From an uncultured Mycoplasmatota bacterium (GTDB lineage Bacteria > Bacillota_I > Bacilli_A > RF39 > UBA660): a DNA stretch of 40,255 nt. Position numbers and translations under genes: made by a program. The DNA lies in the NCBI GenBank assembly GCA_946486465.1, contig CAMLTY010000006.1, forward strand, positions 1 through 40,255, written 5' to 3'. Shown piece by piece: positions 21,550 through 23,628 of this stretch. Under the pieces are notes generated by a model that made no database searches, was not told the DNA's origin, and saw nothing but the letters and a program-made list of their open reading frames with translations. Numbering within the stretch: position 1 is the stretch's first letter; every line of letters begins with the position of its first letter.

Positions 21550-21836
21550 AATAAATAATAAAAGACTAGTCCATACCATAATACTTATAGTACTATGGGA
21601 CGAAACTAGTCTTCCGCGGTGCCACCCAATTTATTATAAAGGAATTATTAACTTTATAATCACTTTTTCGATTCTATCAAATCTAGCAAATGTAACGGTC
21701 TGCACCCGGCTTAGTCTACTTAATTTCTTTAAGCACTCCGAAATGTTATTCACTACTCGTCTTTACTTGTTTCCACCAACCACAAGTTCTCTATAAAAGA
21801 TTAGAAGTAGTTACTTCTTTTCATCAATGTTTTGAT
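21550..21836 (-). promoter_or_regulatory. Asn-specific T-box riboswitch
   Basis: This leader of nearly 300 nt on the minus strand has a Stem I region with the T-box sequence GGGTGGCACCGCGG (complement at 21614-21627) near its 3' side. In the specifier loop context GTGAATAACATTTCGGAG the codon is AAC (complement at 21745-21747), i.e. asparagine. A terminator stem AAGACTAGT/ACTAGTCTT (21562-21570 with 21605-21613) with a T-rich tail competes with the antiterminator formed by the T-box. Uncharged tRNA-Asn should therefore switch on asnB, asnS and the downstream gene. This accounts for the roughly 300 bases without a gene here. Confidence 0.95.
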
Positions 21837-21881: not shown

Positions 21882-23177
21882 CTATTTTTTTACTTTAGAT
21901 TTATCTAAAGAATACTCTTTAACTATTTCCATATCATCTATTTTATCTAATCCTAGACTTTCTATAAATGTTTTATAATCATCATTACCTACTATATTAG
22001 AATCAGTAAATACTTTACCATACTTATTATTAGCAAATAAAGATGCTGTTAAAGCGCAAATATCTTTCCTACCATACTTTATAGATATAGAATTTTTACT
22101 ATTAGGCTGAAAATGGAAATAATATATATGTTTACTTCCCTTACCAATCATATCATATAAAATATTAGTATATTTTTTTAATAGCTTTTTTAAATATGTT
22201 AAATCATCACTCTTTTGATAAAACCCTAACTCTTTTCTAAAATTACTTAAACTATTAAACAGTAATAAAATATCTTCTTTTAAAGTATTAATCACTTCTT
22301 TACTATATATTTTATAATTATTATCCCCACTCATATATTTACTTTTAATAAGAGTACCAAGTTTATCATAAAAGGTTTCAATTATATTAACAATTTCTTC
22401 TCCTAGCTCTTTATCTCCAATAATATAACTTATTTCATTAATTATAGACTTTAACATATTTTTAGTTATATAACCTTCATAAGAGTTACTAACTTTCTCT
22501 TTTAGAATAGATGCTTCATCTACTATTAGAATGGATGGATCTTTAAACATTGGATTATCTTTTCTTTTTAAAGATGCTACTAATAATTCATGTGTACATA
22601 GTACATATTTAGCATTAGGCCAACTTTTTCTATTTAAATAGTATTTACATTCATCTTTATATAGACACTTCTTACAACTTTCTCCATTTATATTAATATT
22701 AGTCCAAATCTCATTAGAAATATTAGGATAATCTTCTTTATCAATCATTTCCTCTTCTATTTTTCTGCTTATCTCATTTAATGTTTTATTTTCTTGATGA
22801 CTTCTAAGATATTTTTCTAGTCTTTTCATACAAACGTAATTAACATGTCCTTTAGCAATGGTAACAGGGATATCCACGTTTATTAATTTAGATAGTTTAT
22901 CTATTTCTTCTTTTAATTTGTTTTGTAGTGAAATGGTAGCAGTTGAAATGAGAAAACCTTTAAAAGATTCTTTATCTTTACTTGCATATAATAATGGTAT
23001 TAAATAGCCATAATTATTATCATCTTTTTCTACTACTAAGATATTTTTATCTCTTAGGATATCTATAATATCTAAAGCAAGAGTCTCATCCTCTTCTTTA
23101 AGCTCATGTATATTAAAAAAACTCTCCACTTCATCATATATTTTATCTTCAAAGTTTTCTTCTTTCCAAATACCCAT
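21882..23177 (-). CDS. Truncated, motif-degenerate DinG/XPD-like helicase protein
   Basis: The 431 residues match the first half of DinG-type superfamily 2 iron-sulfur helicases: motif Ia-like LISTATISLQNKL (about 77-89), four cysteines spaced as for a 4Fe-4S cluster (C116, C168, C171, C177), the THELL stretch and a Walker B-like ILIVDEAS (216-223). Motif I is not recognisable: where a G-x-G-K-T/S loop is expected the protein reads VVEKDDNNYGYLIP. The second helicase lobe with motifs IV-VI is absent; the protein ends soon after LTASLF, whereas the family is usually 600-900 residues. ATP-driven unwinding is unlikely. It is either a decaying pseudogene or an Fe-S protein with a changed role. 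Confidence 0.75.
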   Translation of the reverse strand: MGIWKEENFEDKIYDEVESFFNIHELKEEDETLALDIIDILRDKNILVVEKDDNNYGYLIPLLYASKDKESFKGFLISTATISLQNKLKEEIDKLSKLINVDIPVTIAKGHVNYVCMKRLEKYLRSHQENKTLNEISRKIEEEMIDKEDYPNISNEIWTNININGESCKKCLYKDECKYYLNRKSWPNAKYVLCTHELLVASLKRKDNPMFKDPSILIVDEASILKEKVSNSYEGYITKNMLKSIINEISYIIGDKELGEEIVNIIETFYDKLGTLIKSKYMSGDNNYKIYSKEVINTLKEDILLLFNSLSNFRKELGFYQKSDDLTYLKKLLKKYTNILYDMIGKGSKHIYYFHFQPNSKNSISIKYGRKDICALTASLFANNKYGKVFTDSNIVGNDDYKTFIESLGLDKIDDMEIVKEYSLDKSKVKK

Positions 23178-23257
23178 AAATATTCCCCCTAAGTACGCTT
23201 ATTTTACCATAATTTTAATTAATGGTAAAGAAATAGAATTAATTACTTTTTTGATAC

Positions 23258-23286
23258 TTGTATATAAGATACTTATATGATAAGAT
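23258..23286 (+). promoter_or_regulatory. Promoter for candidate antitoxin RNA
   Basis: TTGTAT (23258-23263), 17-nt spacer and TAAGAT (23281-23286) preceded by TGA, giving an extended -10. An alternative -35 TTGATA is at 23251-23256. Transcription would begin near 23293. Confidence 0.5.
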
Positions 23287-23292
23287 GTATAT

Positions 23293-23408
23293 GTAAGGAA
23301 AAATTTCATACAATAAAAAAGAGGGAAAAACTTAACTTGCCAGAGTTGAGTCTTGCACCTATTGTTTTTTAGGTTTAAGTACTTAATCTTGCGATTGAGT
23401 ACTTTTCT
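23293..23408 (+). ncRNA. Candidate antisense antitoxin RNA (RatA-like position)
   Basis: A transcript of about 115 nt is predicted from the plus-strand promoter to the terminator stem 23377-23388/23393-23404 (12 bp including one G-U, loop TTGC) followed by TTTTCT. It carries a second hairpin at 23330-23351. It would overlap about 90 nt of the 3' untranslated part of the convergent toxin mRNA, as RatA does with txpA in Bacillus subtilis. It has no convincing coding content. Existence of the RNA is inferred from promoter and terminator signals. Confidence 0.5.
23312..23351 (-). terminator. Terminator of candidate type I toxin mRNA
   Basis: On the minus strand ACTCAACT (23344-23351) pairs with AGTTAAGT (23330-23337) including one G-U, followed by TTTTCCCTCTTTTTT. 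The descending arm and T-tract can alternatively pair with the 5' end of the same mRNA (23539-23551). Confidence 0.55.
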
Positions 23409-23417
23409 TATATGGTG

Positions 23418-23495
23418 TTACTTTACGAAAAGCAAGGCGATTAATAAGAAGATAATTATGATTAAAGCAGTAACTAAAAAGTCTATTTTTCTCAT
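23418..23495 (-). CDS. Small hydrophobic peptide, candidate type I toxin (25 residues)
   Basis: The ATG at 23493-23495 has a strong AAGGAGGGG site (about 23505-23513). The 25-residue product has a charged start (MRKIDF), one hydrophobic helix (VTALIIIIFLLIALLF) and a final VK before TAA. This is the general build of TxpA/BsrG/Fst-like type I toxins that insert in the membrane. The gene has its own promoter, a leader of about 56 nt, a long 3' untranslated part, a convergent antisense RNA gene and complementarity between mRNA ends. No sequence family is recognised. It lies between the DinG-like gene and dnaJ, in a gap of about 470 bases that otherwise holds nothing. Confidence 0.65.
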   Translation of the reverse strand: MRKIDFLVTALIIIIFLLIALLFVK

Positions 23496-23558
23496 AATAT
23501 CAAGCCCCTCCTTATTTAGAGTAGGCAAGTACCCAATTGTTAAGTTTTCCCTATAACT

Positions 23559-23587
23559 ATAGTATCATATTGATTTCCATATAGCAA
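23559..23587 (-). promoter_or_regulatory. Promoter for candidate type I toxin
   Basis: On the minus strand TTGCTA (23582-23587), 17-nt spacer ending TGA, TACTAT (23559-23564): an extended -10 promoter. The expected start is near 23552. Confidence 0.6.
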
Positions 23588-23602
23588 GAAAAAATGTAAT
23601 AA

Positions 23603-23628
23603 AAAAGTTACGAGTTTTCGTAACTTTT
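23603..23628. terminator. Terminator of dnaJ (bidirectional)
   Basis: AAAAGTTACGA (23603-23613) pairs perfectly with TCGTAACTTTT (23618-23628) across a 4-nt loop, with T-rich tails in both directions. Confidence 0.85.

Follow-up and report, generated by a model that had tools for sequence, protein, structure and literature searches.

What is encoded in the short stretch between dnaJ and a DinG-like gene of an uncultured Mycoplasmatota bacterium? The window, a stretch of 40,255 nucleotides, had been given a sequence-only reading, which proposed an unannotated type I toxin-antitoxin locus at this site. Such a system is expected to combine a small hydrophobic toxin gene under selection, an antisense RNA gene with its own promoter that is complementary to the toxin mRNA, and a primary transcript that is non-translatable with its Shine-Dalgarno (SD) sequence sequestered; a profile match to a named type I family or a TxpA-like sequence would be further marks. 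The proposal is the best supported of the readings considered here, through paralogues, co-variation of the mRNA ends, selection on the peptide, the antisense promoter and one-sided loss. By sequence comparison the locus is very probably a type I toxin-antitoxin cassette and one of a large family. The analysis also adds what the first reading did not contain: the large paralogous family itself, the co-varying 5′-3′ pairing and a separate hairpin predicted to sequester the SD.

The putative toxin gene and its signals

The putative type I toxin, the 25-residue hydrophobic peptide MRKIDFLVTALIIIIFLLIALLFVK, is encoded on the minus strand at 23418-23495, exactly where it had been placed, and belongs to what is called type A below. 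Its very strong ribosome binding site, the SD AAGGAGGGG, is present at 23505-23513 (minus), and a strong SD recurs among the copies; in the predicted fold it lies within a hairpin formed by GCCTACTC and GGAGGGGC (23504-23526, minus). The gene likewise has its own extended −10 promoter, a consensus match of the form TTGCTA-17-TACTAT with a TG extension (23559-23587, minus), and the sense promoter region is among the best-conserved blocks in the type A alignment. This promoter and a terminal U-run bound a predicted toxin mRNA of about 240 nt (23312-23551, minus). Its 5′ arm GGGAAAACTTAAC (23539-23551, minus) and its 3′ arm GTTAAGTTTTTCCC (23323-23336, minus), the latter directly before the U-run, are complementary with one bulge, as the sequence-only reading had noticed. 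The mRNA terminator claimed at 23312-23351 held in part: hairpin and U-run are present, but the hairpin is imperfect and was missed by the terminator scanner.

Upstream of the sense promoter, at 23608-23623 (no strand assigned), lies a palindrome, TTACGAAAACTCGTAA, which is also inside the dnaJ terminator and stands 44-45 nt before the −10 in most copies having it. As TTACGAAAATTCGTAA, it occurs at this position and at about 20 places in the bacterium's own genome, preceding the −10 by 44-45 nt in most type A and B cassettes. It is also found upstream of a KilA-N/BRO-like gene, an ORF6N-like gene and an XRE regulator gene, as well as near recF, and could possibly be a shared operator. Cassettes of types C and D (L014, L016 and L018) have another common upstream block, TGTATCTTGTTCGATTG, in place of the palindrome. 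A KilA-N/BRO-like gene in L012 (about 2640-2730) has a sense promoter region nearly identical to that of the toxin cassettes, with a different leader.

The antisense gene

The convergent plus-strand promoter and terminator of the sequence-only reading were both found. The promoter, again an extended −10 consensus match (TTGTAT-17-TAAGAT with a TG extension), is at 23258-23286 and the intrinsic terminator spans 23377-23407. The latter is the only one of the two terminators that the scanner detected, in a scan for which shuffled sequence gives an expectation of 0.1 terminator-like sites, whatever their kind, and its hairpin shows compensatory changes at 5 pairs among 40 copies. Between them, these signals predict an antisense RNA of about 115 nt (23293-23408, plus), of the length proposed earlier, which would overlap about 97 nt of the mRNA 3′ end. 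At the level of sequence the locus thus has an antisense RNA gene with its own promoter, complementary to the toxin mRNA.

The spacing of the antisense promoter was fixed in all testable complete copies (n = 101), mostly 33-38 nt past the 3′ arm. It scored above threshold in 97 of these, and the remaining 4 were recognised by eye. The set of 101 had been gathered partly via the antisense region and is therefore biased, and it was complemented by a separate search whose only criteria were the SD and the peptide N-terminus. This recovered 16 hydrophobic peptides, each followed by an extended −10 antisense promoter at 119-128 nt from the stop codon, and a single unrelated ORF, which has no such promoter.

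A family of related loci

The bacterium has a small gut-bacterium genome (1.40 Mb, 109 contigs, 87% complete), in which a DNA search found about 12 related places. A covariance model, here called R1 and built on the 3′ UTR and antisense region, the conserved part of the predicted antisense RNA, raised this to 24 places (E ≤ 0.05). Within the genus R1 matched all 35 genomes, at up to 27 places in each; beyond it, 23 of 37 sampled genomes of the same family, representing 20 further genera, had matches, as did a single genome of 258 outside the family. Several draft genomes of 1.4-1.6 Mb had 22-27 copies, these numbers being model matches in incomplete genomes with rough E-values. The extracted copies display a constant order: sense promoter, 5′ arm, SD hairpin, short hydrophobic ORF, antisense terminator, 3′ arm, U-run and antisense promoter. 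Loci from other genera are complete cassettes carrying new peptides. The sequence-only reading had suggested searching related genomes for the peptide with the same arrangement of promoters and terminators, and order and spacing are kept in more than 100 other copies.

A complete cassette (L161, G214:C32:11400-12038) was also detected near a contig end in a genome from a different family within the class, which could reflect either horizontal transfer or contamination. As to a mobile origin, a plasmid collection gave no match and viral contigs no match to the exact pattern, and neither a plasmid nor a phage source was retained; staphylococcal phages gave a weak match of 36 bases, in the promoter region only. 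No description of such a system in this lineage was found in the open-access literature, and a toxin-antitoxin family spanning a family of uncultured bacteria has apparently gone undescribed so far.

Fold and co-variation of the predicted toxin mRNA

The folding of the mRNA, a check proposed by the first reading, gave −64.4 kcal/mol for the window copy (z = −6.1), a value that none of 200 shuffles equalled, and in the minimum-energy structure both ends are paired and the SD is within a local hairpin. The mean z was −6.2 across 25 mRNA copies, and the antisense strand gave z = −3.6.

In a MAFFT alignment of 39 diverse copies, the 21 proposed pairs of the end-closing helix hold in 96.6% of cells, and pairing drops to 40-49% if the partner is displaced by 1-3 columns. 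Changes on both sides affected 8 of the 21 pairs (21 cells), which was reached in 0 of 500 shuffles. The arms of one and the same copy form 10.9 of 14 Watson-Crick pairs against 7.0 for arms swapped between copies, a comparison that somewhat favours own arms because these were chosen as best matches. Over 87 copies, the end helix has a predicted mean pairing probability of 0.96 and the SD a predicted mean unpaired probability of 0.15. Prediction and the co-variation of the end helix thus point to a primary transcript that is non-translatable, with the SD sequestered. The SD stayed closed in every conformer modelled, the 3′-trimmed mRNA included, and the aapA-like opening of the SD by 3′ trimming was not reproduced in silico. 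Between conserved arms there is also a hypervariable loop of 3 variable positions (entropy up to 1.79 bits); at matched similarity the loop was identical in 2 of 140 same-genome pairs and in 79 of 2299 different-genome pairs, a slight difference on counts too small to claim that copies within one genome are kept distinct in their loops. None of the Rfam covariance models reached its gathering score at this locus, and a known paired-end structured RNA such as 6S RNA was rejected on this ground.

These data bear on the simplest alternative, in which the promoters and terminators are chance matches in AT-rich DNA. The window by itself would allow it, for its promoter-like matches are at chance level (7 found, 7.3 expected). 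The promoter, terminator and pairing calls nevertheless rise above chance, because over 100 further copies preserve them at a constant distance from one another. With the same order in all of these, the co-variation and the fold z of −6.1, the comparative data already refute the chance reading, to which we give next to no credence.

The peptides and their selection

At least six peptide types were found on the one RNA scaffold. Type A, that of the window, begins M-x-K-K-D-F-L..., type B MKTKTFI..., type C reads MRKIEKFLC...VPTP, and types D, E and F begin MKKKDMLIVILL..., MNKHEKSYFIII... and MKKRVFILKVL..., respectively. Their only common traits are a length of 22-33 residues, a basic N-terminus and one hydrophobic stretch. 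The pN/pS ratio was 0.36 for type A (61 distinct genes), with a signal of third-position variability, and 0.38 for type B (10 genes), and in both types alternative reading frames behave differently from the peptide frame. The low ratios together with the differing frames argue that the ORF is used as a protein, and by this codon-level measure the peptide is under purifying selection. The small hydrophobic gene expected of a type I toxin is accordingly present, with 22-33 residues, one hydrophobic stretch and selection at pN/pS 0.36-0.38.

It could be argued instead that the loci are a repetitive element or a structured non-coding RNA with terminal inverted repeats, in which the small ORF is incidental. 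The many dispersed copies, the end-closing arms, which are inverted repeats, the fold z of about −6 and the broken ORFs in a minority of copies would all suit such an element. Its ORF would not be expected to display the codon-position signal and the pN/pS of 0.36-0.38, nor to retain a start codon and SD; the promoters are conserved on both sides, outside the inverted repeats, and the searches of plasmids and of viral contigs for the exact pattern were without a match. We regard this explanation as very improbable, and the type I cassette as the preferred one.

For types A-E, Pfam, NCBIfam and PHROG gave no match above cut-off, in line with the first reading, which could not assign the peptide to a known toxin family. 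Profiles of the named type I families (Hok, Ldr/Fst, Ibs, TisB and others) did not match the scanned peptide types either; the best toxin-profile match was HokA for one peptide, far below threshold (E = 0.2, 11.7 bits against a cut-off of 89). A TxpA-like sequence was likewise not found in these profile scans, in which no family rose above cut-off.

One-sided decay

An intact peptide is missing from 13 of 72 R1 matches in three genomes, with the antisense module retained. Some antisense-only sites are common to two species. Other broken copies have an in-frame stop, an internal deletion or a lost sense promoter, and L108 and L105 (about 490-525), which come from two genomes, have an identical shift of one base in a T-run near the beginning of the peptide gene, perhaps a site of phase variation, perhaps an error of assembly. 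Some of the frameshifts and single-base cases may be assembly errors of draft genomes. The reverse loss, of the antisense gene beside an intact peptide, was not seen, in a survey for which R1 is blind, being built on the antisense side, and for which the peptide-based search, the only one free of this bias, is small (16 hydrophobic peptides and the unrelated ORF).

The sequence-only reading had counted disrupted frames with surrounding signals kept as evidence against itself. Such copies do occur, in a minority, but the loss is one-sided, and a peptide lost while the antisense gene stays is the pattern predicted for an addiction module. Antitoxin-only loci are likewise known for orz of the zor/orz system in Escherichia coli (PMC11264685). 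This pattern speaks against the strongest rival, namely that the peptides are small membrane proteins with a normal function, present in many copies and tuned by antisense RNA. Purifying selection and conservation over at least 20 genera would suit any useful peptide, and toxicity is a prediction. Yet it is the peptide that is disrupted or missing where the antisense module persists, and unrelated peptides sharing only a basic N-terminus and a hydrophobic stretch on one scaffold are typical of membrane toxins. A role other than toxin is in our judgement unlikely.

Probable exchange of cassettes at the dnaJ site

Four related genomes have the window cassette between dnaJ and the DinG-like gene, with bodies 97-100% identical. 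Two other genomes have at this site a type B cassette and a different type A cassette, whose bodies are about 50% identical, the level expected for unrelated AT-rich DNA. The flanking promoters remain similar, at 77-92% for the sense flank and 71-91% for the antisense flank, L073 excepted, where the sense flank is altered; in L076 the antisense promoter alone remains. Differing bodies between similar flanks indicate that the body was replaced as a unit, probably by homologous recombination. A wider interpretation, possible although we lean against it, is a genome-wide set of exchangeable toxin cassettes, in which the whole mRNA body, peptide and arms included, is exchanged at a site between promoters that are alike, giving at least six unrelated peptide types on one scaffold; stand-alone antisense genes, kept across species, may then neutralise incoming or related cassettes.

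The DinG-like protein next to the cassette (21882-23177) has only 431 residues and is far below the cut-offs for full-length DinG/YoaA, and in relatives similar matches cover its whole length. The named contigs with the neighbouring DinG-like gene belong to metagenome-assembled genomes of uncultured Bacilli or Tenericutes. A T-box leader (21593-21836, 140.6 bits) was found upstream of asnB-like and asparaginyl-tRNA synthetase-like genes.

Relation to known systems and proposed mechanism

The TxpA peptide of Bacillus subtilis has about 59 residues. The window peptide has 25 and no profile link to it, and co-varying 5′-3′ end pairing and high copy number further distinguish the present family. 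The likeness to txpA/RatA drawn by the first reading is apt, with a tail-to-tail overlap at the 3′ ends in the window and in the copies. In that system, from the skin element, the RNAs overlap by their 3′ ends over about 120 nt (about 97 nt here), the SD is very strong, the peptide is small and hydrophobic, and RNase III removes the toxin mRNA (PMC3531473). In aapA/IsoA of Helicobacter pylori, also a multi-copy family, a long-distance 5′-3′ interaction and metastable or transient SD hairpins block translation (PMC6733600); the present cassettes share end pairing and an SD hairpin, as predicted and supported by co-variation, and the multiple copies. aapA is activated by 3′-end processing. In the present cassettes the predicted antisense RNA covers the 3′ UTR only, and no sequence relation was found. 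For Clostridioides difficile, 13 type I modules (CD2517.1-RCd8 and relatives) are listed on the strain 630 chromosome (PMC6563280). They too have convergent overlapping toxin and antisense RNAs, several per chromosome, and peptides without homology to other type I toxins, but their peptides are 34-59 residues long (22-33 here) and many are linked to prophages or CRISPR arrays, whereas no phage link was found here. The ibs/Sib and zor/orz systems of E. coli encode very short hydrophobic toxins in repeated loci, and the present peptides are likewise very short, hydrophobic and encoded at repeated loci. No sequence relation to either system was found, and their arrangement is different.

By analogy with txpA/RatA and aapA/IsoA, the mRNA is probably made in a locked form and then removed by the antisense RNA; both transcripts, the toxicity of the peptide, the decay of the duplex and the trigger are what we infer. 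A minus-strand mRNA of about 240 nt would encode the 25-residue membrane peptide, and the local hairpin would hold the SD from early transcription. Once the 3′ end is made, both ends would pair and the molecule would be closed. The plus-strand antisense RNA (about 115 nt) would be made from a strong promoter of its own, tail-to-tail with the mRNA, and would be perfectly complementary to about 97 nt of the 3′ UTR, the 3′ arm included. It would probably clear the mRNA as a duplex via RNase III, as RatA does with txpA. Translation of the peptide, and with it membrane damage, would follow if the antisense RNA were lost or the mRNA trimmed at its 3′ end.

Significance

Type I systems are hard to find, with their tiny unannotated peptides, and those known so far represent few lineages (PMC12390103). 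The family described here occurs in uncultured Bacilli with small genomes, in at least 21 genera, and has more copies per genome than the 13 modules of the C. difficile 630 list (PMC6563280). Its more than 100 natural variants make the RNA mechanism readable from co-variation. It offers a natural experiment on why such modules accumulate, on cognate specificity among about two dozen near-relatives per cell, and on the persistence of antitoxin-only copies.
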